A DNA stretch of 64,000 nt, taken from contig NZ_CP113783.1 of assembly GCF_029542205.1 (NCBI RefSeq), forward strand, positions 1,789,001 through 1,853,000, in the 5' to 3' direction. Source of the DNA: Pseudoxanthomonas sp. SE1. Lineage in GTDB: Bacteria > Pseudomonadota > Gammaproteobacteria > Xanthomonadales > Xanthomonadaceae. This document shows, piece after piece, positions 4,248-45,181 of this stretch. The notes below the pieces were generated by a model that made no database searches, had not been told where the DNA came from, and worked only from the letters and a program-made list of their open reading frames with translations. The position numbers and the translations under genes were made by a program. Position 1 is the first letter of the stretch, and every line of letters begins with the position of its first letter.

Positions 4248-5566
4248 GATCCTGCCCAGATGATCCAGAGGGCGATGCCCTCCAGGAACGTGCCCACGGT
4301 CAGCGCGGCCAGCAGCAGTTTCCACTGCTGTACCGGCACGCTGCCCATCGTCTCGCCGGTGCGGCCGTTGACCGCGATGTAGTGCAGCATGCCGCCGTTG
4401 CTCCCGGGCTGGTGGTACGAGTACAGCCACACCGGCAGGTACATCGACACCCAGCGCGTGCCGTGCACGTCCAGGCGTTCCTGTTCCCAACGCACGCCGC
4501 GGTCGTAGCGGCGTACCGAACCCTCGACCTGCGCGCGCGCGATGGACAGCAACTGGTCTTCCAGCCGCGGGTGCAACTGCTCCACGTCGGTGTCGCGCTT
4601 CTCCGAGGTGAAGCCCGACAGGTAGGACGCGTTCCACTTCACCGCATTCTTGGTGTCGAACGGCAGGATGGTGTTGATGATGTTCTGCGTGTTGACCTTG
4701 GTATCGAAGTTGCCACGCTCGGCGGACGACTCCAGCGGCAGGTCGTCGACGGTGAAGTCGACCTGGCGCTCCACCTGGTACACATCGGCGTCGTAGTAGG
4801 TCTTCTTGTTCTTGTCGGTGCCGCGCGTGTAGGTGCGGGTCAGGATCTCGCCCTTGCCGGCGACCTCCGCGCTGGCGTTGCCGTCGACGATCATGTACGG
4901 CAGGTACACGCCGACGACGTTCTCCGGGGTGAACTGTTCCTTGAACGCCTTCAGCGCGAACAGGCGCCGCTTGCCCACGAACTGGCGGATGCGCGCGACC
5001 GCATCGTCCTTCCTGATGTGGAACGGCAGCACCGCATCAGGCACCGCACCGTTGGCGATCTGTTCGTTCACGCCGAACACGTGGCGGCACCAGTGGCAGC
5101 GTGCCGTCATCGTGCTTTCGGTGTTGACCATCACCTCGGCACCGCAGCCGGTGCATTTGAAGGTCATCAGGCTGGCGACATCGGCGTCGATGGCGCGCGC
5201 GCCGCTGGCGATCACCGTGCCACGCAGCTGGTCCAGGCCCACGCCCAGGCCGAATTCCTCCTCGATCCGCGCACCCACCCATTCGTTGCGGCAGTACAGG
5301 CAGACCAGCAGGTCGCTGCCCGGCTTGTGGCGGATGTCGGTGGCACCGCATTTCGGGCAGCGGTTCAGGCCGTCCTTGAGCTCGGCGGCCGCGGTGTCGA
5401 TGGCGACCGGATCGGGCGCCTCGATCTCCGCGCGGATGGCGTCGGGCAGGGTGGCGGGGTCGACCGGGAACGTCCCGGGCAACGGCGGCACCTCCTGCGG
5501 CGAACCAGGGCCTGCAGGAGGAGCCGGCGGCAACGGCGGGGGCGCCGGACGATGCGGGGTGGACAT
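4244..5566 (-). CDS. TFIIB-type zinc-ribbon membrane protein (YdjG-like)
   Basis: 440 residues. A Pro-rich N-terminus (1-35) precedes two zinc ribbons: C70-x2-C73 with C89-x2-C92, and C138-x2-C141 with C157-x2-C160. The long middle region has no motif I can name. A hydrophobic helix closes the protein (about 415-438, LAALTVGTFLEGIALWIIWA). This architecture matches TFIIB-type zinc-ribbon membrane proteins encoded beside SPFH/virion-core proteins, such as B. subtilis YdjG. It lies 18 bases after the SPFH gene and overlaps the next gene by four bases. A membrane-stress or envelope scaffold role is inference. Confidence 0.8.
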   Translation of the reverse strand: MSTPHRPAPPPLPPAPPAGPGSPQEVPPLPGTFPVDPATLPDAIRAEIEAPDPVAIDTAAAELKDGLNRCPKCGATDIRHKPGSDLLVCLYCRNEWVGARIEEEFGLGVGLDQLRGTVIASGARAIDADVASLMTFKCTGCGAEVMVNTESTMTARCHWCRHVFGVNEQIANGAVPDAVLPFHIRKDDAVARIRQFVGKRRLFALKAFKEQFTPENVVGVYLPYMIVDGNASAEVAGKGEILTRTYTRGTDKNKKTYYDADVYQVERQVDFTVDDLPLESSAERGNFDTKVNTQNIINTILPFDTKNAVKWNASYLSGFTSEKRDTDVEQLHPRLEDQLLSIARAQVEGSVRRYDRGVRWEQERLDVHGTRWVSMYLPVWLYSYHQPGSNGGMLHYIAVNGRTGETMGSVPVQQWKLLLAALTVGTFLEGIALWIIWAGS

Positions 5567-6733: not shown

Positions 6734-6874
6734 GACATCGCTCCGTGATTCGTGGACGGGTAAGGGCACCCGCCAACCGTGACCGAGTATAAAGAGCGAT
6801 ACGCAGGCTTCATGGCGCAGAGGTCATGTGTGACGTGTCATCCGGCGGCCTGGTTTTCTGGCTACCATCGGGGC

Positions 6875-7405
6875 GTGTCCACCGACGACATCGCCACCTT
6901 CCCCGACGACGACCTGCCGCTGGTCCGGCGCGAGTTTCCGTGGCCGATCCGCGCGGGCTGCGTCGCTGCGGGTGTCTTCGCCGTCGTCATGCCGCTCTGG
7001 GAGTTGGGCAGGGGACTGTGGCCGCTGAACGTGGCCACCCCGTTCTTCGCGGCCATCGTGGGCGGCGCAGGCTACGTGGGGCTGCAGTTCATCCGTGCGG
7101 GGCTGTCGGGCTGGGGCGACCACTGGCAGTACTCGCCGCACACCATCGTGGTCCACCGGCGTGCCTGGGGCCGACAGACCACCACCCGCCTGACGACCAC
7201 CAATGTGGCCGCCGTCGAAGTCCGCCTGAGCGAGGATGCGGACCATGACGACGCGCCCTGGCAGGTCGTCATCGTGCCCCGGCCCACGTTCTCCGGCCTG
7301 GCCGCGGCCGCCGGTGCCGGCGGTGTGTTCGATGCCGGCTGCTACGGGTCGCAGGACTATGCCGAGCGCGTGCGGCGCGCGTTGATCGACCACTTGGGGC
7401 TGTGA
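6875..7405 (+). CDS. Conserved hypothetical membrane protein, two TM helices
   Basis: 176 residues from GTG 6875. The open frame extends to 6779, but those residues look non-coding. Two hydrophobic segments (about 24-45 and 50-72) follow an acidic start (STDDIATFPDDDLP). The C-terminal half is soluble and resembles PH-like membrane-associated domains with WQYSPHTIVVHRRAWGRQ, but I cannot assign a family. It is divergent from the SPFH operon and could share its control region. Confidence 0.6.
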   Translation: MSTDDIATFPDDDLPLVRREFPWPIRAGCVAAGVFAVVMPLWELGRGLWPLNVATPFFAAIVGGAGYVGLQFIRAGLSGWGDHWQYSPHTIVVHRRAWGRQTTTRLTTTNVAAVEVRLSEDADHDDAPWQVVIVPRPTFSGLAAAAGAGGVFDAGCYGSQDYAERVRRALIDHLGL

Positions 7406-7408
7406 GCG

Positions 7409-7888
7409 TCAGCCTCGGATCGCGGCCTCGATCTTCGCGATGTCGATCTTGCGCATTTCCATCATCGCTTCGAATGCCCGCTTGGCGATGCCCTTGTCCG
7501 GGCTGGTGAAGGCCTCGGTCAGGATGCGCGGGGTGATCTGCCAGTTCAGGCCCCACTTGTCCTTGCACCAGCCGCAGGCGCTTTCCTGGCCGCCGTTGCC
7601 GACGATGGCATTCCACAGCCGGTCGGTTTCTTCCTGGTCGTCGGTGGCGATCTGGAACGAGAACGCTTCGGTCTGCTTGAACGCCTTGCCACCGTTGAGG
7701 CCGACGCAGGGAATGCCCAGGACGGTGAACTCCACCGTGAGCACGTCGCCTTCCTTGCCGGACGGGAAGTCCGCCGGCGCATGGTGGACGGCTTTCACTT
7801 CGCTGTCGGGAAAGATCTTCGCGTAGAACGTGGCGGCGTCCAGCGCGTCGGTGTCGTACCAGAGGCATAGGGTGTTCTTGGGAATCAT
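7409..7888 (-). CDS. VOC-family protein, PhnB-like
   Basis: 159 residues, full length for the PhnB / 3-demethylubiquinone-9 3-methyltransferase-like fold. Opening residues MIPKNTLCLWYDTDALDAATFYAKIFPDS are typical of this vicinal-oxygen-chelate subgroup, and a WGLNWQITPR motif ends the second half. Reaction unknown; most members have none assigned. A GGAGAACC-type ribosome site precedes the start. It converges with the gene ending at 7405. Confidence 0.85.
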   Translation of the reverse strand: MIPKNTLCLWYDTDALDAATFYAKIFPDSEVKAVHHAPADFPSGKEGDVLTVEFTVLGIPCVGLNGGKAFKQTEAFSFQIATDDQEETDRLWNAIVGNGGQESACGWCKDKWGLNWQITPRILTEAFTSPDKGIAKRAFEAMMEMRKIDIAKIEAAIRG

Positions 7889-26189: not shown

Positions 26190-27047
26190 GTGAGCAGGCG
26201 CTTCCACTTCATCTCGGGCCTGCCGCGTTCCGGATCGACATTGCTGGCCGGCATCCTGCGGCAGAACCCGCGTTTTCAAGCCGGCATGAGCAGTCCGGTG
26301 GCCGGGCTGATCAATGGCGCCCTGGAGCAGATGGGGGCGGGCGGCGAGTCCTGGGCATTCTTTGATGAAGCCAAACGGCGGGCCATATGCCGCGCCTTGC
26401 TCGATGCCTATTATGCCGACAGTGCGGCCGACGTGGTGTTCGATACCAATCGCACATGGACCGCGCGCATGCACCAGCTGGTCGAGTTGGTGGACGACTT
26501 CAAGGTGATCTGCTGCGTTCGGAATCCTGCCTGGATCATGGACAGCTTCGAGTCCATCCACCGGAAGAATCCCTTCGATTACAGCCGCATGTTCAACCCG
26601 GCCACGCGGCAGACCGTATACAGCCGCTGCGACCAGCTGATCAATGCCGGCGGCGCCGTGGGTGGTGCATGGACGGCGTTGAAGGAAGCCTACTACGGCG
26701 AATTCTCCGACCGACTGCTGCTGGTCGACTACGAACTGCTCACGCGCCATCCGGCCCGCACGATGGAACTGGTGTACGACTTCATCGGCGAACCGCGGTT
26801 CACCCACGACTTCGACAACGTGGACTACGCCGAAGAGGCGTTCGACCAGGGGTTGGGCGTCAAGGGCCTGCATACGGTCAGGCGGAAGGTCGAATTCAGG
26901 GCCCGGCGGAGCATCCTGCCGCCGGATCTGTTCGCGAAATATCAGGGCATGGATTTCTGGCAGGACCAGGCCGGCACGGCGGCGGGGATCGTTGCGCCGC
27001 GTCGCGACGGCAGCCAGGCCACGGACAACACCAAGGACACACCATGA
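26190..27047 (+). CDS. Sulfotransferase
   Basis: 285 residues from GTG 26190, with GGGAAGG upstream. The 5'-phosphosulfate loop is FISGLPRSGSTLLAGIL (PRSGST at 12-17), and the 3'-phosphate region is FKVICCVRNPAWIMDSFESI. Late features LLVDYELLTRHPARTMELVYDFIGEP match the sulfotransferase_3 group. It should move sulfate from PAPS to a protein or sugar acceptor in the cytoplasm. The stop overlaps the ATG of the giant autotransporter by four bases, so the autotransporter or something bound to it is the obvious candidate substrate (inference). Confidence 0.87.
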   Translation: MSRRFHFISGLPRSGSTLLAGILRQNPRFQAGMSSPVAGLINGALEQMGAGGESWAFFDEAKRRAICRALLDAYYADSAADVVFDTNRTWTARMHQLVELVDDFKVICCVRNPAWIMDSFESIHRKNPFDYSRMFNPATRQTVYSRCDQLINAGGAVGGAWTALKEAYYGEFSDRLLLVDYELLTRHPARTMELVYDFIGEPRFTHDFDNVDYAEEAFDQGLGVKGLHTVRRKVEFRARRSILPPDLFAKYQGMDFWQDQAGTAAGIVAPRRDGSQATDNTKDTP

Positions 27048-30000
27048 AGCGCGCCCTGCTTGGCGGCCTTTCGACGCTGCTGCTCCCCTTTTCCGCGCAT
27101 GCTGCCGCCACCTCTGCGGGCGGTTATCTGATGCGCGGTGGCTATCAGCCGCGCAGCTATCTGAGGATGGACCACCGCACAGGCTCCAGTGTGGTCGACC
27201 TGGCGCGAAACGGTGCCCCGTCTGTCAAGCAACGCACACAACACCCGCGCGACGTGACTGCCGATTCGTTGGCGGTCCTGCAGACCGCTGCCGTCACCGA
27301 GCTCGTGGTGATCGACAGTTCCGTCCAGGACAAGGCCACGCTGTATCGCGGGCTGCGTCCAGGCGTCGCTGCGGTGGAAATCGATGCGTCCCGCCCCGGC
27401 CTTCCGCAGTTGGTCGAGGCACTGCGCGGTTACCGCGACCTGGCCGCGATCCACGTGGTCTCCCACGCCAATGCAGGCATGTTGCAGCTGGGCAGCAGCA
27501 GGATCGACGCCGAGGCGATGCATGGCGAACTTTCCGCGATGCAGGCGCTGCGTGGCGCCGTTCGCGATGGCGCCGACCTGCTGCTCTATGGCTGCGATCT
27601 TGCTGCCGGCGCGTCCGGTGAAGCGTTGCTGGACATCATCCACCAGGGAACCGGCATGGATGTGGCCGGCTCGTCGAACCTGACCGGTGACGCGGAGCAG
27701 GGCGGTGACTGGGAACTGGAGGTACAGCGCGGCAGCTTCGACACCGCGCTGGCGTTCTCGGCCAAGGCGCTGGCCGACTTCTCGGACGTGCTGGTGGCCA
27801 GCAACGGCACGAAGACGTTCTCCATGTTCACGGACGCCGGCAACACGCTGGTCAACACGGATTTCACCGCGTCGGCACGGGACGGCACCAATGCCGTGCT
27901 CAACGTGAGCTTGTACGCGGGTGGCATCGCTTACATCCAGACAGGCGGTACGCAGACCGGCAACTATTTCTACGTGCAGGCAGATGGCGCCAACACGACG
28001 GCTTTCGAGCTTACCGGCCTCAATGCCGGCGAGTACCTGGATGGACAGTTCACCAACATGCGTGTCGTCGGCATGCTGGCATCCGGCGGTACCGTCACCT
28101 CGTCCACGGTCAACGGCAGCGCCATGCAAGGCGAGAGCTTCAGTTTCAGCGGTGGCGAGCTGTCGGCTTTCGCGGGACAGAAGCTGAAGGGCTTCAAGCT
28201 GTACGTTGACTGCCAGGGAACATGTGCGTCCCCGCCCAACAATCTCGCCTTCTTCGAGTTCCGCAACTTCACCATCCAGGGAGCCATTGACACGCCACCT
28301 GCCCCCATCGTGACGGATGCTCGCATCAGCATCTCCGGCGCGACCGGTACCGGCGGGGCCTTCAAGATCGGCGACACCGTCACCGCTACCTGGAACAACA
28401 CCGCTGCGGGCGACAACAGTGGCATCATGACTGGCGTCACCGTGGATTTCAGTCAGTTCGGCGGCGGAGCGGCGGTGGCTGCGAGCAACAGCAGCAACAC
28501 CTGGACCGCCACGTATACGATCACGTCGGGCGCCATCGATGCGATCAACAGCAACATCAGTGTCACTGCGACCAATACGGGCGGCAGCACGACGATCGGC
28601 GATACCACCAACGCCACGGTCGACAACATCGCACCGACGGTGACGGACGGCAACATCGCCATTTCCGGTGCGTCGGGCACCGGTGGTGTGTACAGGATCG
28701 GTGACACGGTCACCGCCACCTGGAACAACACGCCCGCGGGCGACAACAATGCGGACACCATCAGTGGTGCTACCGTCAACTTCAGCCAGTTCGGTGGTGG
28801 CGCGGCAGTGAGCGCGACCAACAGCGGCGGCACCTGGACGGCAACGTACACGTTGCCCAGTGGCGCGCTCCAGACGACGGGCCGCAATGTCTCGTTCACG
28901 GCGACCGACAATGCAGGCAATCTCACGACGGTAGTCGATACCACCAATGCCGCTGTCGACACTGCGCCGCCCGCGGTCACCGCCATCACGGTGAGCGGCT
29001 CTCCTGCGGCCACCGCCACCAGCGTGACCTTCACGGTCGCGTTCAACGAAGCGGTCAGCAACGTCTCGACCGACGACTTCGCGCTGGTCACGACGGGCTC
29101 GGCCACGGGCACGATCAGTGCTGTCTCCACCAGCAGCGGCACCTCGATCGACGTCACCGTGAGCGGCATTGCCGGCGATGGAACGCTGGAAGTGAATCTC
29201 AACGGGTCCACCGACATCGCGGACGCGGCCGGCAACAGCGGGCCGGCGGCGTTCACCAGTGGATCGACCCATACGGTCGCCATTCCGACCGCGCCGGGCG
29301 CACCGACCATCGGCACGGCGACGGCAGGCGATGGCCAGGTCAGCGTCACCTTCACCGCGCCGGGCAGCAACGGCGGTTCGGCCATCACCACGTACACGGC
29401 GACGGCCAGTCCCGGTGGCGCGTTCGGCACCTGTGCGGGGCCGGCAGCCTGCACGGCCACCGTGACCGGACTCAGCAACGGCACGGCGTATACCTTCACG
29501 GTCACCGCCACCAACGCCATTGGAACGAGCGTGGCGTCGGGCACGTCGAACGCAGCCACGCCCAAGGGCAACCAGACCCTCACGTTCGGCAATCCCGGTG
29601 CACAGAATTTCGGCACCACGCCGACGTTGGCCGCCACTGCGACATCCGGTCTCGCGCCGACGTTCAGTTCGTCCACCACCGGCGTATGCACCATCACCTC
29701 CGGCGGCGCGCTGACGTTCGTCACCGCGGGCAGCTGCACCATCGACGCCGACCAGGCCGGCGACGCTGTATGGAGCGCGGCAACCACCGTGAGCCAAACC
29801 TTCACGGTCAACGCCGTGGTGCCCGGGGCGCCGACCATCGGTACCGCGACGGCGGGAGATACCGAGGCCACGATCACGTTCACCGGGCCGGTCTCCATCG
29901 GCGGTGCCGCCATCATCGCCGGCGGTTACACGGTCACGGCGAATCCCGGCGGCGCAACCGGCACCGGCTCGAATTCGCCGATCACGGTCACCGGGCTGAC

Positions 30001-33000
30001 CAACGGCGTGGCGTACACGTTCACGGTGACGGCGACGAACTCCGCGGGCACCGGCAGTGCATCGGCGGCATCGAACAGCATCACGCCCGCATCGCCGCAG
30101 ACGATCACCTTCGCCAATCCCGGTGCGCAGAACTTCGGCACCTCGCCGACGATTGGCGCGACTTCGAGTTCGGGACTGACGGTGTCTTTCACCTCCGCCA
30201 CGACCGCTGTCTGCACGATCACCCCGGGCGGCACGCTGACCTTCATCGCAGCCGGCATCTGCACCATCAACGCCGACCAGGCGGGCGACGGCAGCTTCCT
30301 CCCCGCGTCGCAGGTCAGCCGGTCGTTCTCCGTCAGTCCCGTGGTGCCGGCTGCGCCGACGATCGGCACGGCGATCGCTGGCGACACCCAGGCGAGTGTC
30401 GCGTTCACCGCCCCGCTGAACATCGGCGGATCGGCGATCACCAGCTATACCGTGACCGTCAACCCGGCCGATGTGGCACCGATCAATGGCGCGTCGTCGC
30501 CGATCGTCGTCACGGGCCTGACCAATGGCATCGCATACACCTTCACGGTGACGGCGGACAATGTGGCGGGCACGGGTCCTGCGTCGGCGGCGTCGAACAG
30601 CATCACGCCGGCAGCGACGCAGACCATCACCTTCAACAACCCCGGTGCACAGAACTTCGGCACTACGCCGACGCTAACCGCGACATCGGACTCCGGCCTG
30701 ACGCCGACATTCACCTCGTCCACGACGGGCGTCTGCACGATCACCTCCGGTGGTGCGCTGACGTTCGTTACCGCGGGCACCTGCACGATCAATGCCGACC
30801 AGGCGGGAAATGGCAGCTATCTGGCGGCCCCGCAGGTCAGTCGCACGTTCACCGTCAATCCGGTGGTGCCGGGTGCGCCGACCATCGGGACGGCCACGAT
30901 GGCGCTTGCAGGAGAAGTTGATATCGCGTTCACCGCGCCTATCAGCAACGGTGGCGTGGCGATCACCGGATACACGGTTACCGCACAGCCTGGTGGAGCG
31001 ACCGTCGTGGGCGCGTCGAGTCCCATCCGCTTCGCCGGTCTGTCCGCGGGAACCAGTTACACGTTCACCGTGGCCGCGACGAACAGTGCGGGCACGGGGT
31101 CGGCTTCGGCGGCATCGAATGCGGTCACGCCCGCCCCAGCGCTCGTCGCGGGCCCGGTCAGCACGTCGCTGCCCTATGGCGCGACGGCCACGCCGGTGAC
31201 GCTTGCGATCACGGGCACCGCCACGTCGGTGGCCGTTGGAGCTCCGCCGGCGCACGGTACCGCCACTGTCAGTGGTACGACGATCACCTACCAGCCGACG
31301 CCGGGTTATTCCGGCCCGGACAGCTTCACCTATACAGCCAGCGATGCGTACCAGACCACCGCGGCCGCGACGGTGACGATCACCGTGACGGCGCCGACGG
31401 TGGTGCTGGATGCCGCGAATCCCGGCAACGGCGCGGGCGGCACAGCCTACACGCATGCGTTCCTCGCCAGTGGCGGTGCATCGCCTTACCGCTTCCAGCT
31501 TGTCGGCGGCGCTTTGCCGAGCGGGCTGAGCCTGGGCACGGACGGACGCATCACCGGCACGCCGACGGTGGCGGGCAGCTTCACGTTGACGGTGGAGGTG
31601 ACCGACAGCAGCACGGGCACCGGTCCCTTCACGGCGCAGCAGCAGTACACGCTGCAGGTGGTGGCGCCGCAGATCGCGTTCGCGCTGCCCGCATTGCCGC
31701 AGGCGACGCATGCCAGTGCGTTCGACCAGACCCTGACGGTAACCGGCGGCACCGCGCCGTACACCTACGCGGTGACGGCAGGCAGCCTGCCGCAGGGCGT
31801 CGCGTTGAGTGCGGCGGGCGTGCTGTCGGGAACGCCGACCGCGTCGGGGCGCTTCTCCTTCACGGTGGAGGCGCGTGATGCCAACGGCTTCACGGGAGCG
31901 CAGGCGTACGAACTGGTCGTGGCACAGGCGCTGCAGGCCATCACCGGCTTCAGTGCGAATCCGGCCACGCCGGTGTTCGCGCCCAATGGCACGTTCACCG
32001 TGGCCGCGACGGGGGGTGCGTCCGGCAACCCGGTGGTGTTCGCGAGCGCCACGGCGCAGGTCTGCCAGGTGAGTGGTGCGACCGTCACCATGCTGGCGGC
32101 CGGGCGTTGCAGCCTGACAGCGGACCAGGCAGGCGATGCGAACCACGAGGCGGCACCGCAGGTGCGACTGGACGTGGATATCGCGGCCGCCGTGCCGACG
32201 CTTGAATGGCCGGAAGAACTGCGCAAGGTGTTCGGCGAGCCTGCGTTCGACCTGGTGAACCCGCAGAGCCCCAGCAGCGGTGCCTTCACCTTCACCAGCA
32301 GCGATCCGGAGGTGGCCAGCATCAATGGGCGCACCGTGACGCTGCATGCGGAAGGCGAGACCGTCATCACCGCGTCGCAGGCGGCCGCCGGCAACTACGC
32401 GGCGGCCAGTGTGGAGATGCGCCTGCAGGTGGAAGTGCGCCCGGATCCGACCCGGGACCCGGGCGTGGTCGGCCTGTTGCAGGCACAGGTCGATGCGAGC
32501 GTGCGTTTCGCAAGCGCGCAGCAGTCGAACATCCGCGACCGCCTGCGCCAGGTGCGCAGCGGTGCCAACGGCTCCAGCAACAACGTCACGCTGGCCTATG
32601 CCGGTAGTGAGGAGCGCCAGGGGCTTTCGGTGCCCGTGGGCCAGGCCACGGGCGGCAGCCTGCCGGCGCTGCCGCAGGGATGGGGGGCGTGGGCATCGGG
32701 CACGGCGACGTTCGGCAAGAGCGGCCGGGCAGGCGGATACGACTTCCAGACCGATGGCCTCACGCTGGGTGCGGACCGCGCCATCGGCGAACAGGTGCTG
32801 GTCGGCGTGGCGGGCAGTCTGGCGCGCAACGACAGCGATCTGGACGGCACGGCGTCGCGCCTGAAGGCCGACCAGCGCTCGCTGGCGCTGTACGGCCTGT
32901 GGCGCGCGGGCGAGCATGTGTTCGTGGACGGCATGCTGGCCACCGGGCGCCTGGACTTCGATATCCGCCGCTGGAGCGACGATGCCGGGGCGATGGGCAC

Positions 33001-33598
33001 CGCGGTGCGCGATGGCAAGCAATGGTTCGGTTCTTTGGCTTTCGGCTACGAGCATCGTGGCAAACGTATGGCGCTGACCACCTATGGTCGCTTCGATGCC
33101 AGCCGCACCACGCTGGAGGCCTATCGCGAGTACGGGATGGACATCTACGACCTGGCCTATCGGCGCCAGATGGTGGAGAACAGCACCGTCGCGCTGGGCC
33201 TGGAGGGCAGCTACCGCTTCGGTGGTGACGACGGGCGCTACCGTCCGTTCTGGAGCCTGGAGTATCGCCAGGCGCTGGAGGACAAGGGCGAGGCCGCGAT
33301 GAACTATGTCGTGTGGCCGCACCCCACCGACTATCGCCTGGACATGCAGAGCTACAACGACGATGCCCTGGCATTGTCGGCGGGCCTGGACGTGAAGCTG
33401 CGACAGGGGTGGCTGCTGTCGTTGCTGTTCGGTCACGAACAGGCCAGCAACAGTACGCAGGGCAGCAGCATCGGCCTGCGGCTGTCGTATGGGCAGCCCT
33501 CCAGCGGCGGGTTCGTGCCGGATGACGGCACGATGGCCGGCGATGCCGCCCGTCGTTGCGGACGCCGGTGCGCCAACAGCGGCGCCGCGCCCCGCTGA
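27044..33598 (+). CDS. Giant autotransporter adhesin: DUF4347, FN3/Ig repeats, C-terminal beta-barrel
   Basis: 2184 residues. Order: signal peptide (MKRALLGGLSTLLLPFSAHA); DUF4347 domain (about 85-240, VVSHANAGMLQLG and LLLYGCDLAAG); a beta-rich unit (245-420); two copies of a block starting ISISGA(T/S)GTGG (420-645); a Big-type Ig unit; four FN3 units alternating with NPGAQNFGT-type units (750-1365); a cadherin-like Ig and two putative-Ig (He_PIG) domains (1370-1630); a linker; and an autotransporter barrel (about 1875-2150, from GWGAWASGTATFGKSG). After the last strand (IGLRLSYG) come about 33 extra residues with two cysteines, unusual for a barrel end. Surface adhesin role inferred. A strong terminator follows. 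Confidence 0.88.
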   Translation: MKRALLGGLSTLLLPFSAHAAATSAGGYLMRGGYQPRSYLRMDHRTGSSVVDLARNGAPSVKQRTQHPRDVTADSLAVLQTAAVTELVVIDSSVQDKATLYRGLRPGVAAVEIDASRPGLPQLVEALRGYRDLAAIHVVSHANAGMLQLGSSRIDAEAMHGELSAMQALRGAVRDGADLLLYGCDLAAGASGEALLDIIHQGTGMDVAGSSNLTGDAEQGGDWELEVQRGSFDTALAFSAKALADFSDVLVASNGTKTFSMFTDAGNTLVNTDFTASARDGTNAVLNVSLYAGGIAYIQTGGTQTGNYFYVQADGANTTAFELTGLNAGEYLDGQFTNMRVVGMLASGGTVTSSTVNGSAMQGESFSFSGGELSAFAGQKLKGFKLYVDCQGTCASPPNNLAFFEFRNFTIQGAIDTPPAPIVTDARISISGATGTGGAFKIGDTVTATWNNTAAGDNSGIMTGVTVDFSQFGGGAAVAASNSSNTWTATYTITSGAIDAINSNISVTATNTGGSTTIGDTTNATVDNIAPTVTDGNIAISGASGTGGVYRIGDTVTATWNNTPAGDNNADTISGATVNFSQFGGGAAVSATNSGGTWTATYTLPSGALQTTGRNVSFTATDNAGNLTTVVDTTNAAVDTAPPAVTAITVSGSPAATATSVTFTVAFNEAVSNVSTDDFALVTTGSATGTISAVSTSSGTSIDVTVSGIAGDGTLEVNLNGSTDIADAAGNSGPAAFTSGSTHTVAIPTAPGAPTIGTATAGDGQVSVTFTAPGSNGGSAITTYTATASPGGAFGTCAGPAACTATVTGLSNGTAYTFTVTATNAIGTSVASGTSNAATPKGNQTLTFGNPGAQNFGTTPTLAATATSGLAPTFSSSTTGVCTITSGGALTFVTAGSCTIDADQAGDAVWSAATTVSQTFTVNAVVPGAPTIGTATAGDTEATITFTGPVSIGGAAIIAGGYTVTANPGGATGTGSNSPITVTGLTNGVAYTFTVTATNSAGTGSASAASNSITPASPQTITFANPGAQNFGTSPTIGATSSSGLTVSFTSATTAVCTITPGGTLTFIAAGICTINADQAGDGSFLPASQVSRSFSVSPVVPAAPTIGTAIAGDTQASVAFTAPLNIGGSAITSYTVTVNPADVAPINGASSPIVVTGLTNGIAYTFTVTADNVAGTGPASAASNSITPAATQTITFNNPGAQNFGTTPTLTATSDSGLTPTFTSSTTGVCTITSGGALTFVTAGTCTINADQAGNGSYLAAPQVSRTFTVNPVVPGAPTIGTATMALAGEVDIAFTAPISNGGVAITGYTVTAQPGGATVVGASSPIRFAGLSAGTSYTFTVAATNSAGTGSASAASNAVTPAPALVAGPVSTSLPYGATATPVTLAITGTATSVAVGAPPAHGTATVSGTTITYQPTPGYSGPDSFTYTASDAYQTTAAATVTITVTAPTVVLDAANPGNGAGGTAYTHAFLASGGASPYRFQLVGGALPSGLSLGTDGRITGTPTVAGSFTLTVEVTDSSTGTGPFTAQQQYTLQVVAPQIAFALPALPQATHASAFDQTLTVTGGTAPYTYAVTAGSLPQGVALSAAGVLSGTPTASGRFSFTVEARDANGFTGAQAYELVVAQALQAITGFSANPATPVFAPNGTFTVAATGGASGNPVVFASATAQVCQVSGATVTMLAAGRCSLTADQAGDANHEAAPQVRLDVDIAAAVPTLEWPEELRKVFGEPAFDLVNPQSPSSGAFTFTSSDPEVASINGRTVTLHAEGETVITASQAAAGNYAAASVEMRLQVEVRPDPTRDPGVVGLLQAQVDASVRFASAQQSNIRDRLRQVRSGANGSSNNVTLAYAGSEERQGLSVPVGQATGGSLPALPQGWGAWASGTATFGKSGRAGGYDFQTDGLTLGADRAIGEQVLVGVAGSLARNDSDLDGTASRLKADQRSLALYGLWRAGEHVFVDGMLATGRLDFDIRRWSDDAGAMGTAVRDGKQWFGSLAFGYEHRGKRMALTTYGRFDASRTTLEAYREYGMDIYDLAYRRQMVENSTVALGLEGSYRFGGDDGRYRPFWSLEYRQALEDKGEAAMNYVVWPHPTDYRLDMQSYNDDALALSAGLDVKLRQGWLLSLLFGHEQASNSTQGSSIGLRLSYGQPSSGGFVPDDGTMAGDAARRCGRRCANSGAAPR
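29294..31135 (+). repeat. About 525-bp internal super-repeat of the autotransporter gene
   Basis: Starts of FN3 units with (G/A)APTIGTA recur near 29294, 29822, 30347 and 30868. Between them a NPGAQNFGT..PT...VCTI unit appears three times. Period is about 175 residues. The copies are diverged at DNA level, so this is a coding repeat, not a mobile one. Confidence 0.85.
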
Positions 33599-38530: not shown

Positions 38531-39889
38531 ATGCGCGTTGCCAATTCCCTGCTCCTGTTGCTGGCCGGCCTGGCGTCGGCGCCCTGCGGACACGCCGCAC
38601 CGGTGCCGCAGCAGGGACGGGACGGGATCGACGTGGGCGCGGTGCTGTCGCCGCGGGACCGCGTGGAGCCCGAGAACCGCATGCTCCGCGAGCGGCTCGA
38701 CACCTTGCTGCCACGGCTGATGCGTGATGCCGACCTCGACATGTGGGTGGTGATCGCGCGCGAGTACGCCGAGGACCCGGTGTACTTCACGCTGGTGCCG
38801 CAACCGGCCCATGCGGCGCGCCGGACCACGATGCTGGTGTTCCATCGCCAGCCGGACGGCAGCGTGCAGCGGCTGTCCATCAACCGATACCCGTTCGGCG
38901 CACCCTACGAGACGGCGTGGTCCGGCGGAGACCTCAATGCGCAGTGGGAGGCGCTGGGGGCGCTGATCACCGCGCGCGACCCGCGCAGGATCGGCATCAA
39001 CGTCTCCGGCGAGTGGGCGGTCGCCGATGGCCTGACGCACGCGCTGCACGAGCGCCTGCTGTCGGTGCTGCCGGCCGCGCTGCACGCCAGGCTCGTGCCG
39101 GCGGAGACGCTGGTCGTCCGCTGGATGGAAACCCGCACGGCGGGAGAGCTCGCGGCGTATCCGCATATCGTGTCGCTCGCACGCGGCGTGATCGCCGAAG
39201 CGTTCTCGGGTCGGGTCATCACGCCCGGCGTCACCACCACGGACGATGTGGCCTGGTACATCCGGGAGCGCTTCGAGTCGTTGGGGCTGGCGCCGTGGTT
39301 CATGCCGGACGTGAACCTGCAGCGGGCCGGAACGGCGTGCGCCGACGATGCGCCGTTCTGCGGCGAAGAAGGCGTGATCCAGCCCGGCGATGTGCTGCAT
39401 ACCGATGTGGGGCTGTGCTACCTCAAGCTCTGCACCGATACGCAGGAAATGGCCTATGTGGCGCGTGCGGGGGAAGCCGGGGTGCCTGCCGGGTTGCGTG
39501 CGGCGCTGGCACAGGGCAACCGCTGGCAGGACGCGCTGACGGGCCAGTTCGTCAGCGGTCGCACGGGCAACGAGATCCAGGCGGCGACGCAGCGCGAGGT
39601 GGCGCGCCTGGGCCTGCGCGCGGCGACCTACTCGCATCCGGTGGGGTTCGTGGGCCACGCGCCCGGGCCGACGATCGGCATGTGGGACAACCAGGGCCCC
39701 ACGGCGGGGCAGGGCGACTGGCCCCTGCATGCCGATACGGTCTACGCCATCGAGGGCAACGTGAAGGCACGCGTCCCGGAGTGGGGCGGGCAGAACGTGC
39801 AGGTGAAGCTGGAGCAGATGGCCGTGTTCGATGGCCGGAGGGTGGTCTATCTGGCAGGGCGGCAGGTGGTCTGGCACCTGGTGCGGTGA
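38531..39889 (+). CDS. Exported M24-family metallopeptidase (Xaa-Pro aminopeptidase-like)
   Basis: 452 residues with signal peptide (MRVANSLLLLLAGLASAPCGHA). The C-terminal pita-bread domain has the five metal ligands in order: D in VLHTDVGL, D in LCTDTQ, H in VGHAPGP, E in YAIEGNVKA and E in VKLEQMAVF. The N-terminal creatinase-like domain covers about 45-200. It removes N-terminal residues ahead of proline or related dipeptides. Divergent from the TPR gene. Confidence 0.88.
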   Translation: MRVANSLLLLLAGLASAPCGHAAPVPQQGRDGIDVGAVLSPRDRVEPENRMLRERLDTLLPRLMRDADLDMWVVIAREYAEDPVYFTLVPQPAHAARRTTMLVFHRQPDGSVQRLSINRYPFGAPYETAWSGGDLNAQWEALGALITARDPRRIGINVSGEWAVADGLTHALHERLLSVLPAALHARLVPAETLVVRWMETRTAGELAAYPHIVSLARGVIAEAFSGRVITPGVTTTDDVAWYIRERFESLGLAPWFMPDVNLQRAGTACADDAPFCGEEGVIQPGDVLHTDVGLCYLKLCTDTQEMAYVARAGEAGVPAGLRAALAQGNRWQDALTGQFVSGRTGNEIQAATQREVARLGLRAATYSHPVGFVGHAPGPTIGMWDNQGPTAGQGDWPLHADTVYAIEGNVKARVPEWGGQNVQVKLEQMAVFDGRRVVYLAGRQVVWHLVR

Positions 39890-39921
39890 CGCGCCGGACG
39901 CGCGGGCGTTAGGATGCCCGC

Positions 39922-40362
39922 ATGAGCGCCGATGCCCACCTGATCGCCTGCCCGCACTGCGCGGCGATGAACCGTGTGCCGCCGGCGCGGCTGATCGAGG
40001 CACCCAACTGCGGGCGCTGCCACCATCCCCTGTTCACCGGCCTGCCGCTGGCGCTGGGCGAGGCGGACTTCGACCGCCACGCGCTGCGCAGTACGCTGCC
40101 GTTGCTGGTGGATTTCTGGGCGCCGTGGTGCGGGCCCTGCCTGCAGATGGCTCCGCACTTCCAGCAGGCGGCGGGCGTGCTGGAGCCCGCGATGCGGTTG
40201 GCCAAGGTGGACACGGAAGCCTGCCCGGGACTGGGCAACCGCTTCGGTATCCGCAGCATCCCCACGATGGTGCTGCTGCAGGGCGGCCGCGAGCTCGCCC
40301 GGCAGAGCGGGGCGATGTCGGCGGAGGCGATCGTCAGGTGGGCGCGAGGGGTGGTGGGATGA
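39922..40362 (+). CDS. trxC: Thioredoxin 2
   Basis: 146 residues. An N-terminal zinc ribbon (C10-x2-C13, C30-x2-C33) precedes a thioredoxin domain with active site WCGPC (69-73) and the cis-proline IPT. This is the TrxC architecture, a redox-stress thioredoxin of the cytoplasm. It lies 32 bases after the M24 gene. Confidence 0.95.
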   Translation: MSADAHLIACPHCAAMNRVPPARLIEAPNCGRCHHPLFTGLPLALGEADFDRHALRSTLPLLVDFWAPWCGPCLQMAPHFQQAAGVLEPAMRLAKVDTEACPGLGNRFGIRSIPTMVLLQGGRELARQSGAMSAEAIVRWARGVVG

Positions 40363-40443
40363 TGTTGCAAAAGACGCGTAAACGCGGTGCGGTGTTCTGT
40401 GCGGGCGCCAAGCGATGATCACGAATCGTGCGGTGGTCGCGGC

Positions 40444-40983
40444 ATGACTCTGCCGATTCTTGAAACAGGCCGCTTTCACCTGCGGCCTCTGCTTGAGAAG
40501 GACCGGGCGTTGTACGTTTCCATTTACACGAACGAAGCGCTGATGCGCTTCGTGGGCGAGCCAATGACGTCCGGGGACGCAGCACGCGCGTTCGGCGCGT
40601 TTCTTAGTTCCAATCGGCATGGTGACCTTCGGCGGGCTTGTTGTTGGGTGATCGAACACGGCGGTCCGACGCGGGAAGCAGTCGGGCTTCTAGCGCTGAT
40701 TCCCCATTCGCATGCCGCTGAAATCGGAGTGATGGTTCTACAGGCTTGGCAGGGTCGCAAGGTTGCCCAGGACGTCATCGGGTTCCTTTCCGGCCATGTG
40801 TTCCAGGGGGAGAGTTGGACACGGACCTTCAGCCGACATCTGCGCGAGAACGAAGCAGGTGCTGGCGTGATGCGCAGGCTGGGGTTCCGGGAGATGGAGG
40901 ATGTTCCCGGGGGCGCGCGATTTCGGGGGTGGGAGATGGCGCGCGGGGAGTGGAAGGAGCGCCATTCGGTGGCGCAGCTGTAA
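40444..40983 (+). CDS. GNAT acetyltransferase at the borosin locus
   Basis: 179 residues from ATG 40444. The RimJ/RimL-like GNAT pattern is present: LETGRFHLRPLLEKDRALYV at the start, EIGVMVLQAWQGRKVAQDVIGFL as the acetyl-CoA region, and NEAGAGVMRRLGFREME. It ends 26 bases before the borosin-type methyltransferase, suggesting one transcript. Ten of codons 3-31 end in A or T, against three of the first 29 in trxC next door, so codon use differs. Acetylation of the modified peptide is possible, but no direct evidence is seen. Confidence 0.8.
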   Translation: MTLPILETGRFHLRPLLEKDRALYVSIYTNEALMRFVGEPMTSGDAARAFGAFLSSNRHGDLRRACCWVIEHGGPTREAVGLLALIPHSHAAEIGVMVLQAWQGRKVAQDVIGFLSGHVFQGESWTRTFSRHLRENEAGAGVMRRLGFREMEDVPGGARFRGWEMARGEWKERHSVAQL

Positions 40984-40998
40984 GGGACATGATGGGGC

Positions 40999-41004
40999 AG
41001 GAGG
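40999..41004 (+). promoter_or_regulatory. Ribosome site fixing the methyltransferase start
   Basis: AGGAGG lies five bases before ATG 41010. In-frame ATGs at 40989 and 40992 have no such site, and SonM-like proteins begin at the equivalent of 41010. Confidence 0.75.
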
Positions 41005-41009
41005 AAGCA

Positions 41010-41792
41010 ATGACAGGAATGGGTACGCTCGCATGCGTGGGCGTAGGAATGACGTTGGGAGCGCACCTTGCGCCGCGAGCGCGGAGCCATATCGAACAGG
41101 CCGATGTGGTCTTCAGTGCCATGTCGGATCCGATCGTGGAGCTTTGGGTCCAGGGCATGAACCGGGACGTCAGGAGCCTGCAGCCGCTCTATGCCGAAGG
41201 GAAGCCGCGTCGCGAGACCTATCGCGAGATGGTGGACCTGATGCTGGCAGAGGTCCGCCAGGGGCGCCGCGTATGCGGGGCCTTCTACGGTCATCCCGGG
41301 GTCTTCGCCCAGGTGCCGCACCAGGCGCTGGCGAAAGCGCGTGCGGAAGGCTATGAGGCTGTCATGGAAGCCGCTGTTTCTGCTGAGGATTGCCTCTATG
41401 CGGATCTGGGCATCGATCCTGGCGCTTTCGGTTGTCAGCATTTTGAAGCCAGCCAGTTCATGTTCTATCGGCGCAGAGTGGATCCTTCCGCCTACTTGGT
41501 CCTTTGGCAGATCGGCGTGGCTGGTGACCTGACCACGGGGCGCCTGTCCACGGACGCTGGAGCAAAGCAGTTGCTGGTGGATCTGCTGCTTGACGACTAC
41601 CCGCCGGATCATGAAGTTGTCGCCTATGAAGCAGCGACCCTGCCCATTGCCCCCCCTCGCATTGACCGTCTGCCGCTCGATCGGTTGCCTACGGCCTCCC
41701 TGTCGACCGCGACCACGTTGGTGATACCTCCTGCCATGCCCTTGCGCCCTAACGAGCGCATGCTGGAGCAACTGCGCCGCATGGCGCGGTGA
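41010..41792 (+). CDS. Split-borosin peptide alpha-N-methyltransferase (SonM/OphM-like tetrapyrrole-methylase fold)
   Basis: 260 residues. It has the tetrapyrrole methylase fold with GTLACVGVGMTLGAHL at the N-terminus. Signature positions of backbone N-methyltransferases are present: Y61 (LYAEGK), R67 and Y71 (RRETY), which align by eye with OphMA Y63, R72 and Y76, and the SAM-site loop FYGHPGVF (92-99). Also conserved are VSAEDCLYADLGIDPG and FEASQFMFY. Unlike fungal OphMA, no substrate peptide is fused; the precursor is a separate gene 138 bases downstream, as in Shewanella SonM/SonA. Expected to methylate backbone amides of the precursor core in the cytoplasm. Confidence 0.88.
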   Translation: MTGMGTLACVGVGMTLGAHLAPRARSHIEQADVVFSAMSDPIVELWVQGMNRDVRSLQPLYAEGKPRRETYREMVDLMLAEVRQGRRVCGAFYGHPGVFAQVPHQALAKARAEGYEAVMEAAVSAEDCLYADLGIDPGAFGCQHFEASQFMFYRRRVDPSAYLVLWQIGVAGDLTTGRLSTDAGAKQLLVDLLLDDYPPDHEVVAYEAATLPIAPPRIDRLPLDRLPTASLSTATTLVIPPAMPLRPNERMLEQLRRMAR

Positions 41793-41808
41793 CGCCTGGT
41801 GGTGCCGG

Positions 41809-41829
41809 AATGGTCATGGCAAGACCATT
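41809..41829 (+). other. Stem-loop between methyltransferase and precursor genes
   Basis: AATGGTC (41809-41815), seven-base loop, GACCATT (41823-41829). It is directly followed by TTGAAA. It could tune relative expression of enzyme and precursor, or be chance. Confidence 0.3.
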
Positions 41830-41930
41830 GAAAAGTGGGTATTGTCCCGGTCGGGGGCAGCTTTTGCCGGCCTGTCGGGTCCGGTAGTGGCTGCGAAAGC
41901 GTCGAATTTCATCAAAATTGGGGAAACAGC

Positions 41931-42206
41931 GTGTCCAATGCAATCCGCTTTCTGGAATCCATGGGGGCGTCCGATTCGCTGCGTGCGGCATCGGACTATG
42001 AGGCGGCGGTGAGGGCGCTCGATGTCGGGTCGGCCCAACAGACTGCGCTGCTCGACCGTGATTCGGCTTCACTTGCGGGGCTGTTGCTCGCCCGTCCGAC
42101 GATGTTCTGCATGATCCTGGCTCCGGACGAGGGCAAGGAAGACGAATTGCCCGACCAGGCCGACGAGCAGACGGATGGAGACGAGGATCACGGAGAAAAA
42201 GAGTAG
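41931..42206 (+). CDS. Borosin precursor peptide (SonA-like)
   Basis: 91 residues from GTG 41931, which follows GGGGAAA. Residues 1-55 (SNAIRFLESMGASDSL, YEAAVRALDV, TALLDRDSASLAGLL) align by eye with the helical borosin-binding domain of SonA (start MSGLSDFFTQLG). The hydrophobic stretch MFCMILAP (58-65) takes the place of the SonA core and is the predicted methylation region. The last 26 residues (from D66) are strongly acidic, a follower that SonA lacks. It contains a single Cys (C60), in the predicted core. Confidence 0.82.
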   Translation: MSNAIRFLESMGASDSLRAASDYEAAVRALDVGSAQQTALLDRDSASLAGLLLARPTMFCMILAPDEGKEDELPDQADEQTDGDEDHGEKE

Positions 42207-42255
42207 GCTCCGGGAGCGTTTTGCTCCGGCTGCATCGGCTGATCAGGAGAAGGAC

Positions 42256-44073
42256 ATGAGACTCGGGAAAGGACGTACCTTGTGGTTGGCAGCTGCGCTG
42301 GCGTGCGTTTTCGCCGCGCCGGTCCAGGCACAGGTTTCTCCCGGCATCGATGCGCTGATCGAACAGGCGGAGGCGATCAAGACGTCGCAGCCCGCCAAGT
42401 TCTATGATCTGTTGGAACGCCTCGAAAAGCGTGTCGAGGAGGCCACACCCGAGCAACGCCTCAAGCTGAGGCTGCTCAGGGCGCATGGTTTCCTGATGAA
42501 GGGCAGGGCGGAGCCGGCGATACGCGAGCTCCGCCAGATCCAGCAGGAAACCGACGACCCGGAGATGCTGTTCTGGACAGGCTCGCTGCTGGTCAACACC
42601 TACGCGTTGACGCGGAAGTTCGAGCAGGGGCTGACGACGCTCAATGACATCCTCCCACTCGCCACCAAGGTGGAGAAGAAGGACGTCCGTCACCGGGGTC
42701 TTCTGGTCGCGGGCCTGCTGTACAACCAGGTAGGGGAGTACATGCTCGGCGAGCAGTACGCCAACCAGGTCCTGGCAGACGCGCCCGAGGGGCGCAACCA
42801 GTGCGCCGCCGGCAACTTGGTTGCCGAAGCGGCGCTAGGGCTCAAGAAGGCGCCCTCGGAGGAAATGATCTTTCGTACCATCAAGGTCTGCGAAGACCAG
42901 AAGGAGCCGATTCTTGGTGGATTGACGCGTACGTACCTTGCACGGAAATGGGTGGAGGACGGCAAAGTCGATCAAGCCATCGAACTGCTCGAGCGTTACC
43001 TCCCTACCGTGACGGCTACGGGCTACCCGCTGGTCATCAGTGAGTACCACGCCATGCTGGCCAGCATGTACCTGAAGCTGGGCGACATCGGCACGGCGCA
43101 GGCGCACGCCAACGAAGCGGTGGAGCGAGGGGTGGGCATGACATCGCTGCCGCTCGTGGTGGCATACAAGACACTTTATGAAATCGCCGAGTCGCGTGGT
43201 GATTCCAAGGCAGCATTGTCGCGCTACCGGCAGTACGCCGACGCCGACAAGGCATACCTCAACGACGTGAAAACGCGCCAGCTCGCTTATCAGATCGTCC
43301 GCCAGCAGATCCTCCAGAAGACCCAGCAGATCAGCATGCTGGACCAGGAAAACCAGGTCCTGCAGCTGCAGCGTACGGTCGACCAACAGGCCGCGCAGAA
43401 CACGCGGCTGATCGTCATCCTGCTGGTGCTGCTGGTCGCCTCCATCGGCTACTGGGCGTTCAAGATCAAGCGCGTGCAGCTGTCGCTGAAGAAGATGGCC
43501 GAGACCGACGCGCTGACCGGCATCTGCAACCGCCACCACTTCACCCTGCGTGCCGAACGCGCGCTGGCCGAGTGCGCCCGCAATGGCGAACAGGCCGCGC
43601 TGATCATGTTCGACCTCGACCACTTCAAGAACATCAACGACCGTTTCGGCCATGGCACCGGCGACTGGGCACTCAAGGAAGTGGCAGAAGCCAGCAAGGG
43701 CTTCTGCCGCCGCATCGACGTACTCGGCCGCCTGGGTGGCGAGGAATTCGCCATCCTCATGTACGGTTGCGACCTGCGCGCCGCTGCCCGCGTGGCTGAA
43801 GACTGTCGCGTGCGCCTGGCGCAGATCGAGACCCGCGAGACCGGGCATGTCTTCGCCATCACCGGCAGTTTCGGCGTGACCTCCAGCGTGCAGTCCGGCT
43901 ACAGCCTGGCCAAGCTGCTGTCGCACGCCGACAAACAGCTGTACCGCGCCAAGCACCTGGGCCGCAACCGCGTCTGCGTGCACGAGAACGAACACGAGAA
44001 CGTGCGTGCCTCCGGCAGCAACGTGCTGGAACTGCCGCAGCGCGAAGGCCGCACGGAACACCTGGGCGCCTGA
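42256..44073 (+). CDS. Diguanylate cyclase with periplasmic TPR sensor
   Basis: 605 residues, ATG 42256 with AGGAGAAGG upstream. A signal peptide (about 1-28) leads into TPR-like helical repeats (about 35-360), a coiled-coil (365-395), one membrane helix (LIVILLVLLVASIGYWAF, about 395-413) and a GGDEF domain with intact GGEEF near 493. The inhibitory RxxD site (RRID) lies five residues before it. It should make cyclic di-GMP in response to a periplasmic signal. It lies 49 bases after the borosin precursor and may share its transcript; a functional tie is not proven. Confidence 0.9.
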   Translation: MRLGKGRTLWLAAALACVFAAPVQAQVSPGIDALIEQAEAIKTSQPAKFYDLLERLEKRVEEATPEQRLKLRLLRAHGFLMKGRAEPAIRELRQIQQETDDPEMLFWTGSLLVNTYALTRKFEQGLTTLNDILPLATKVEKKDVRHRGLLVAGLLYNQVGEYMLGEQYANQVLADAPEGRNQCAAGNLVAEAALGLKKAPSEEMIFRTIKVCEDQKEPILGGLTRTYLARKWVEDGKVDQAIELLERYLPTVTATGYPLVISEYHAMLASMYLKLGDIGTAQAHANEAVERGVGMTSLPLVVAYKTLYEIAESRGDSKAALSRYRQYADADKAYLNDVKTRQLAYQIVRQQILQKTQQISMLDQENQVLQLQRTVDQQAAQNTRLIVILLVLLVASIGYWAFKIKRVQLSLKKMAETDALTGICNRHHFTLRAERALAECARNGEQAALIMFDLDHFKNINDRFGHGTGDWALKEVAEASKGFCRRIDVLGRLGGEEFAILMYGCDLRAAARVAEDCRVRLAQIETRETGHVFAITGSFGVTSSVQSGYSLAKLLSHADKQLYRAKHLGRNRVCVHENEHENVRASGSNVLELPQREGRTEHLGA

Positions 44074-44092
44074 CGCTGCCGCGTCGCCTTGC

Positions 44093-45181
44093 TCAGCGTG
44101 TGGCGAGGGCGGGCTGCGGCCCTTCGTGGATGGCCAACTGGTTGCGCCCGCTGCTCTTCGCCCGGTAGAGCGCCCGGTCGGCCGCTTCCAGCCAGGCCCG
44201 CAAGCCGGCTGTCGCGGCATCCGCGTTCGCCAATCCCAGGCTCACCGTGTGTCGCAGGTGCGGCGCGGACTGCACCCGCAAGGCCTCCACGCCTGCCCGG
44301 ATGCGTTGGGCGACGATCTCCGCCGCCATCAGGTCGGTTCCGCGCAGTAGCACAGCGAACTCGTCGCCACCCAGCCGGCCCGCGCAGTCCTGCCCGCGGA
44401 TGCTGTGGCGGATCACCTCGGCGGTCGCGCGCAGCACGTCATCACCCACCGCGTGTCCGTGGCGGTCGTTGATCGCCTTGAAGTGGTCGATGTCGATCAT
44501 CATCAGTGTCGCGGGCTCTCCGGTCACGGCGCACTGGTCCAGCAACAGCGTCGCCTGTTCCTGCCAGTGCCGGCGGCTGTCCAGTCCCGTCAACGTATCG
44601 CGCCGGCTCAGTTCGTCCAGCAGGCGGTTCTGCCGCTTCACCTTGCGGACCAGGTGATAGCTGGCCTGGCTGACCGCGATGGAGTGGATCAGCAGCATCG
44701 GCAGGCACGCCAGCATCACCGGCATGCTGGTCGCGGGACGCAGTTCGAATCCTGTCGCCGCCCCGGCCACCAACGCGCCGGCCAGCATCAGCGGCAGCGA
44801 CCAGTACCAGAGACGATCGATGCCGGTGCTGATCTTGTCGACCGTGGCCAGTGTCACCAGCAGCACGCTGGGGAGCAGGTTGAATGCCATCAGCGGCACC
44901 CACATGCCGGCCAGCAGGGAATCGAACAGCAGGTTGCGGATCTCGCCCCGAAAAGGCATGGGATGGCGCAACGACAGCCATAGTGCGAGTTGCGGCCACA
45001 GTACGGCGGTGAAGGCCAGCCATGCCCACGTGCCCCAGGCGGCATTGTTCTCCAGCAGGACAGTCCCCACCGGCAACGCAGCCAGACCCATCCCCAGCAT
45101 GCGCAGCCGGTAGATCCGGCGCGGCAATCGCTGGCTCTGGCGCGCCGGATCGGCGCCGGAAGGCGGTGCGGTGAACGGCAT
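44093..45181 (-). CDS. Diguanylate cyclase with MASE2 membrane domain
   Basis: 362 residues. An N-terminal MASE2-type block (about 20-175) has RRIYRLRMLGMGL and FNLLPSVLLVTLATVDKIS. The GGDEF domain (about 195-355) has intact RLGGDEF and an RxxD inhibitory site (RGQD) five residues before it. Predicted cyclic di-GMP synthesis at the inner membrane, as in DgcC/AdrA. It converges with the TPR cyclase, only 19 bases apart. Confidence 0.9.
   Translation of the reverse strand: MPFTAPPSGADPARQSQRLPRRIYRLRMLGMGLAALPVGTVLLENNAAWGTWAWLAFTAVLWPQLALWLSLRHPMPFRGEIRNLLFDSLLAGMWVPLMAFNLLPSVLLVTLATVDKISTGIDRLWYWSLPLMLAGALVAGAATGFELRPATSMPVMLACLPMLLIHSIAVSQASYHLVRKVKRQNRLLDELSRRDTLTGLDSRRHWQEQATLLLDQCAVTGEPATLMMIDIDHFKAINDRHGHAVGDDVLRATAEVIRHSIRGQDCAGRLGGDEFAVLLRGTDLMAAEIVAQRIRAGVEALRVQSAPHLRHTVSLGLANADAATAGLRAWLEAADRALYRAKSSGRNQLAIHEGPQPALATR

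Follow-up and report, generated by a model that had tools for sequence, protein, structure and literature searches.

A gene for a putative peptide backbone methyltransferase, followed by a small frame, raises two questions: whether the two genes encode a split borosin, and what the resulting peptide would be for. The whole stretch of DNA that was analysed, 64,000 nucleotides in length, is called the window here and is part of a single 4,229,371-base contig. The products of the window were compared with those of related loci in other genomes, and the features are collected in Table 1.

Table 1. Features of the putative borosin unit, in window positions unless a locus is named
Feature	Position	Strand	Basis
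GNAT N-acetyltransferase (Acetyltransf_3), 179 aa from ATG	40444..40983	+	Pfam PF13302, E 1.1e-16
SonM/OphMA-type peptide backbone alpha-N-methyltransferase	41010..41792	+	PDB match, Pfam TP_methylase, active-site residues
Borosin precursor, 91 aa, GTG start	41931..42206	+	SonA-like profile, predicted fold
Borosin binding domain of precursor, residues 1-54, four predicted helices	41931..42092	+	AlphaFold2 model
Predicted core, residues 57-66 (TMFCMILAPD)	42099..42128	+	predicted from alignment to SonA
Acidic C-terminal follower of precursor, residues 67-91	42129..42203	+	sequence; tails in relatives
Membrane diguanylate cyclase (DGC), 605 aa: signal peptide, TPR domain, TM helix, GGDEF	42256..44073	+	Pfam GGDEF, AlphaFold2
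Extracytoplasmic TPR domain of DGC, about residues 27-345, with invariant Cys183 and Cys212	42334..43290	+	
Transmembrane segment of DGC, about residues 379-397	43390..43446	+	hydropathy
GGDEF domain of DGC; GGEEF at residues 494-498, RxxD at 485-488	43498..43971	+	Pfam, motifs
Pepsin-like protease gene of related loci	L179 3927-5249; also L066, L069, L072, L081, L125-L128, L190, L194, L210		

Identity of the methyltransferase

The methyltransferase has 260 residues when counted from its ATG, and the mechanical open frame begins farther upstream. An earlier note on this DNA had assigned it the tetrapyrrole-methylase fold and the OphMA/SonM type, and both assignments are supported by our searches. 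The protein matches Pfam TP_methylase (PF00590) with an E-value of 9.9e-21, and its top PDB match is SonM (E 1.4e-75, 51% identity). The fungal enzymes rank after SonM, with dbOphM at 4.6e-51 and OphMA at about 6e-47, and OphMA-type chains match at 1e-51 to 1e-44. Mutating Y58, R67, Y71 and Y93 lowers the activity of SonM, as described in passages of PMC8429565. All four tested residues are present in the window enzyme, where Y61, R67, Y71 and Y93 align with them in that order; Y61, R67, Y71 and the FYGHPGVF stretch (residues 92-99, including Y93) lie where the earlier note had put them. Across the window and the related loci, 162 of 163 methyltransferase domains keep all four residues.

A methylase of the cobalamin or siroheme pathway with an unrelated small frame downstream, which the shared Pfam family and the names precorrin-2 methylase, siroheme synthase or YabN-like given to some relatives by some sources would favour, is extremely improbable and was rejected, as the sole cobalamin/siroheme-type chain among the PDB matches has an E-value of 0.22, the NCBIfam models score far under their cut-offs (YabN, 38.9 versus 525 bits), and the precursor and the active-site residues are conserved jointly. 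The check that had been proposed, a comparison of the enzyme with the tetrapyrrole methylase and SonM/OphMA families, came out in favour of SonM and not of a cobalamin/siroheme-type enzyme. A phage origin of the methyltransferase-precursor pair was also rejected, because neither protein matches PHROGs.

The nearest named protein relatives are from Pseudoxanthomonas (96% and 90% identity), so the placement of the locus in a Xanthomonadaceae chromosome is correct. Family-wide, the enzyme was detected at E <= 1e-40 in 104 of 297 genomes, and the loci that were fetched are a subset of these; class-wide, it was detected at E <= 1e-30 in 9 of 369 genomes.

The precursor and its predicted core

The precursor gene begins 138 nt past the stop of the methyltransferase gene, and no signal peptide was seen in its product. 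A protein search returned 15 sequences at E <= 0.001, its own near-copy counted, and single-sequence searches of Pfam, NCBIfam and PDB gave nothing at useful E-values. The profile of alignment A4 identified the precursor as SonA-like. This profile is preferred to that of A2, which finds SonA at E 2.1e-19, because A2 includes SonA orthologues. In the AlphaFold2 model the leader folds into a helical borosin binding domain with a mean pLDDT of 85-97 in the ten-residue blocks of residues 1-50, and the matches listed by the structure search include SonA and the clasp of OphMA. The separate SonA-like gene that had been claimed directly downstream of the enzyme was thus recovered by both profile and predicted fold.

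SonM/SonA of Shewanella oneidensis is a type IV split borosin in which, as in the window, enzyme and precursor are separate proteins, according to passages of PMC8429565. The two systems have in common the four active-site residues, the helical leader domain and the enzyme similarity given above. The window adds a GNAT gene, a cysteine in the core and, behind the core, an acidic tail of 25 residues. Most of the Xanthomonadaceae precursors in alignment A4 likewise end in an acidic tail, whereas SonA has none. Fungal OphMA and dbOphMA belong to the same enzyme family and, as noted, OphMA has a clasp like the window leader, but they carry enzyme and core in one protein.

The methylation sites of SonA are L63 and I65, as given in passages of PMC8429565. 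In an alignment profile including SonA orthologues, C60 and I62 of the window precursor occupy the equivalent positions, and these two residues are predicted as the most likely methylation sites of the core. A recognisable precursor gene was found in 145 of 161 non-duplicate stretches around methyltransferase genes, which together with the conserved active site takes the observation beyond chance. By every feature open to testing by sequence or model, this locus qualifies as a split borosin, and the methyltransferase and the precursor very probably form a pair of the SonM/SonA (type IV) kind.

A membrane diguanylate cyclase next to the precursor

The unit at this locus is larger than the methyltransferase-precursor pair, with the GNAT gene upstream and the DGC gene downstream. 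The DGC gene starts 49 nt after the precursor gene, and its product is predicted to be an enzyme of the c-di-GMP-making kind. It matches Pfam GGDEF with an E-value of 1.7e-41 and carries an intact GGEEF, in agreement with the GG[DE]EF pattern, together with an RxxD; we take these to be the active site and the inhibitory-site motif, respectively. TPR models score only below cut-off. In the AlphaFold2 model of the protein (mean pLDDT 92), the TPR domain spans about 320 residues.

The extracytoplasmic placement of the TPR domain is drawn from a signal peptide recognised by eye in the window protein, the hydropathy, the positive charge found on average after the TM segment in 157 DGC relatives, and a cysteine pair that is invariant in 164 of 164 readable relatives. 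Only 74 of 157 cyclases passed a rough check for an N-terminal hydrophobic stretch, perhaps because gene starts were trimmed.

The TPR model has peptide-bound Rap receptors among its listed matches, at only 7-12% identity. APPBP2 and an APC/C subunit score like Rap, and since TPR superhelices resemble one another, this match speaks of shape and not of ligand. Rap proteins are cytoplasmic. The same signal peptide, hydropathy, charge and cysteines argue against such a location for the window TPR domain, which is also joined to a cyclase, and we did not file the DGC as a member of the RRNPP/Rap receptors.

Linkage of the methyltransferase, precursor and cyclase genes

A TPR-GGDEF DGC on the same strand was found within 5 kb of the methyltransferase in 143 of the 161 non-duplicate stretches. 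When 46 Shewanella and Parashewanella stretches were left out the count was 99 of 115, and when eight shorter duplicates were included a TPR-GGDEF DGC was near the methyltransferase in 144 of 169. No two of the 161 stretches share an identical methyltransferase sequence, but they are related to one another, so the locus counts are not independent tests. Family counts over the 157 stretches that reach 6.5 kb or more put TPR-GGDEF first (145 stretches), ahead of a separate methyltransferase (140) and GNAT (65). The other neighbour families checked, in nine size classes of the 25 largest, were mostly overlapping frames or lineage-bound, except for a pepsin-like protease.

The same association was seen with two other sets of loci. 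When 111 stretches were scanned with a profile for each of the four window proteins, GNAT, methyltransferase, precursor and TPR-GGDEF occurred together in most Xanthomonadaceae loci. A second layout was also present, in which the precursor is followed by one protein of about 840 residues with TPR, TM and GGDEF parts fused to the methyltransferase. In the best 80 of 556 named loci from a search led by an SonM alignment, the TPR-GGDEF cyclase adjoins SonMA in Shewanella, Rheinheimera, Colwellia, Arsukibacterium, Alkalimonas and others; in Shewanella sp. ANA-3 the SonA homologue and the cyclase gene behind it are 10 nt apart.

Of the 38 genomes of the genus, 22 have full-length DGC homologues (E <= 1e-30), and these are the same 22 that have the split enzyme. 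Three further genomes carry the fusion, and the 13 genomes without the enzyme have no full-length DGC homologue. All of the full-length homologues (27/27) sit at the methyltransferase locus. DGC and methyltransferase form one protein in 14 stretches, and the fusion clade includes a relative with the order precursor-DGC-methyltransferase (support 1.0).

To weigh these counts, we estimated the background by hand. The window genome has 34 GGDEF genes in 4.23 Mb, and therefore a random gene has a likelihood of about 5% of a same-strand GGDEF gene within 5 kb. The relatedness of the stretches, 46 of 161 being Shewanella or Parashewanella, would favour chance or plain inheritance of gene order from a recent ancestor as the source of the DGC neighbourhood. 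This explanation is very unlikely given the background estimate, the persistence of the DGC while other neighbours vary between genera, and the several gene orders that exist (M-p-D, n-M-p-D, M-n-p-D, p-D-M and fused).

The cyclase also goes with the precursor at a finer scale. The median gap in 144 precursor-cyclase pairs is 61 nt, and in nine loci the pair is present in two or three copies; in L190 and L209, among others, additional DGCs stand alone. In loci such as L191, L198 and L204 two such pairs share one methyltransferase, which argues that the copied partner is the precursor rather than the enzyme. Over all pairs, the partial rank correlation of core distances was 0.29 with TPR distances, 0.16 with GGDEF distances and 0.14 with enzyme distances. 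Within clades the advantage of TPR over GGDEF is not clear: core-TPR exceeded core-GGDEF in 67%, 69% and 53% of bootstraps. For the Rheinheimera/Colwellia group, the best correlation of the core was with the enzyme. This covariation gives weak support to a pairing of the peptide with the TPR domain. Taken together, a functional link between the borosin pair and the DGC is highly likely, and a borosin pair joined with such a link is likewise a likely description of the locus.

Loci that depart from the pattern

In 18 of the 161 stretches no full TPR-GGDEF was found within 5 kb. The frame is interrupted in L049, where the cyclase frame overlaps the enzyme frame; contig ends are near in L161, L171 and L180; and L112 has a different GGDEF protein of 1,082 aa in its place. 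The Kangiella loci L178, L187 and L188 have TPR only, the GGDEF part being absent. In these loci TPR-only proteins with signal peptides (7189-9366 in L178) adjoin the enzyme and precursor; two such proteins remain after the loss of GGDEF, and the readable ones keep the cysteine pair.

The other ten stretches (L058-L060, L100, L101 and L114-L118) have a methyltransferase and no TPR-GGDEF found within 5 kb. In L058-L060 (genomes G303, G294 and G167) the methyltransferase forms the N-terminal part of a frame of 450 to 513 aa, and neither precursor nor cyclase was found; these are perhaps another borosin type. L100 (G058) carries, upstream of the enzyme at 4479-4910, a precursor with three to four YFCxVxTPE repeats, and shows no TPR-cyclase within that distance. 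The more distant methyltransferases of L115, L116 and L118 have a small frame just upstream, and L115 and L116 have a transporter-like neighbour instead of the cyclase, both as judged by eye. In L114 (G588, 6866-7777) the methyltransferase relative lacks every one of the four active-site residues, and no precursor or DGC was found within about 7 kb; it is perhaps a retired enzyme.

A class-wide search with the DGC profile, in which up to three candidates per genome were scored, detected full-length TPR-DGCs in at least five of 369 genomes. Genome G454 has one and shows no methyltransferase match at E <= 1e-30, and in G588 the cyclase and the enzyme are on different contigs. These two TPR-DGCs, examined away from borosin loci, have no cysteines at the positions of the invariant pair; the G588 protein carries two at other places in its TPR part.

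Possible role of the peptide

In the window and at most related loci examined, the gene of a c-di-GMP-type membrane enzyme lies next to the borosin genes, which points to a possible role of the peptide in chemical signalling. By homology, a methyltransferase dimer would bind the helical leader of the precursor and use SAM to methylate backbone amides of the core, most likely at the two residues named above. The GNAT enzyme may acetylate the product. The core would then be cut free and reach the periplasm, aided by its backbone methylation. Gene linkage suggests that the DGC is the dedicated partner of the precursor; its periplasmic TPR domain would bind the peptide and set the activity of the cytoplasmic GGDEF domain, and the peptide would be a signal or a self-sensed product that alters c-di-GMP. 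In this signalling scheme, the peptide would owe its stability and membrane permeability to methylation, and the invariant cysteine pair would hold the TPR domain.

We propose tentatively that the window peptide is the ligand of the DGC. With similar reserve, the split borosins of Gammaproteobacteria at large can be suggested to serve peptide signalling, each precursor being paired with its own DGC whose TPR domain reads the methylated peptide into c-di-GMP.

The main rival to signalling is co-regulation, in which the DGC senses a different cue in the periplasm and tunes lifestyle or production of the peptide. The peptide, an ordinary secreted product such as an antagonist or metal binder, would then never be bound by the TPR domain. 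Operon linkage alone would yield the same synteny counts, methyltransferases without a DGC exist (L058-L060, L100, L101 and L115-L118), and the core-TPR covariation is weak inside clades. The duplication of precursor and DGC together in nine loci speaks against it, though with the lone extra DGCs of L190 and L209 to be set beside it, and the TPR domain retained without GGDEF in Kangiella is unexpected under a pure output role. We regard co-regulation as possible but rather doubtful.

Alternatively, the DGC could recruit or gate the methyltransferase at the membrane. Its TPR domain would then respond to a different cue, and methylation would be the output. The clade in which GGDEF is fused to the methyltransferase on the cytoplasmic side would be the clearest form of such gating. 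It is unlikely in view of Kangiella, where no GGDEF or TM part was found to gate the enzyme, and of L191, L198 and L204, where one enzyme is shared between two precursor-DGC pairs.

If signalling through the DGC is true, SonMA and its relatives would gain a function, a new class of ribosomal autoinducer would be defined, and TPR-cyclases could serve as a marker to find more such peptides. A peptide that alters c-di-GMP through the cyclase would make methylated-backbone ribosomal peptides bacterial signals. With the cyclase beside most enzyme-precursor pairs and fused in one clade, the effect of the peptide on c-di-GMP is open to a cheap and direct test.

Relation to published borosins

Some GGDEF-containing borosin form is known in print, because the legend of Figure 1 in PMC11395268 names a GGDEF domain in a borosin architecture. 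Judged from this legend, the form is perhaps the fused layout of L043-L057; in the window, by contrast, DGC and methyltransferase are separate. The passages of that paper at hand contain no discussion of a role for c-di-GMP. It was the only paper found with borosin and GGDEF as search terms, and the same text search showed that the word GGDEF is not used in PMC8429565. In a literature search of partial coverage, which makes an earlier description possible, no paper joined borosin with diguanylate (cyclase) or c-di-GMP, and priority for the borosin-DGC link is uncertain.

GNAT, protease and other neighbouring genes

A GNAT gene is near the methyltransferase in 75 of the 161 non-duplicate stretches, and its product is likely to be a tailoring enzyme or a co-transcribed partner. 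A cysteine in the core region was present in 74 of 84 precursors with GNAT nearby and in 8 of 78 without it. This association mostly separates large clades, and it may hint at a role of GNAT or reflect clade only.

A pepsin-like aspartic protease gene (PF00026) occurs in 12 of 157 stretches from two lineages, Xanthomonadaceae and the Colwellia group, with E-values of 8.5e-17 to 5.8e-11 for the three proteins tested. Where inspected, for example in L179, it stands in a row before GNAT and enzyme, and pieces of it are present in L200 and L202 and in the short stretches L032, L034 and L042 from further genomes. A Shewasin-type pepsin homologue reportedly cuts a borosin precursor, and the PF00026 protease could do the same and release the peptide in some relatives. 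In the window genome, the Pfam model, run without a positive control, found no such protease. A search with a Xanthomonadaceae copy gave no match in G000 (the window genome), G017, G014 and G030 and recovered the protease in the controls G135 and G210; with the Colwellia copy, none was found in 38 genomes of the genus.

No exporter was seen at the window locus. Predictions of sigma-70 promoters and terminators in 39700-44300 gave 0 and 4, the same as in shuffled sequence. A second diguanylate cyclase gene (MASE2 and GGDEF; 44093-45181, minus strand) is convergent to the DGC gene, and GGDEF matches on the opposite strand lie close by in many Pseudoxanthomonas borosin loci. Elsewhere in the window, a 2,403-aa autotransporter with DUF4347, fn3 and Ig-like domains is encoded at 26387-33598 on the plus strand.
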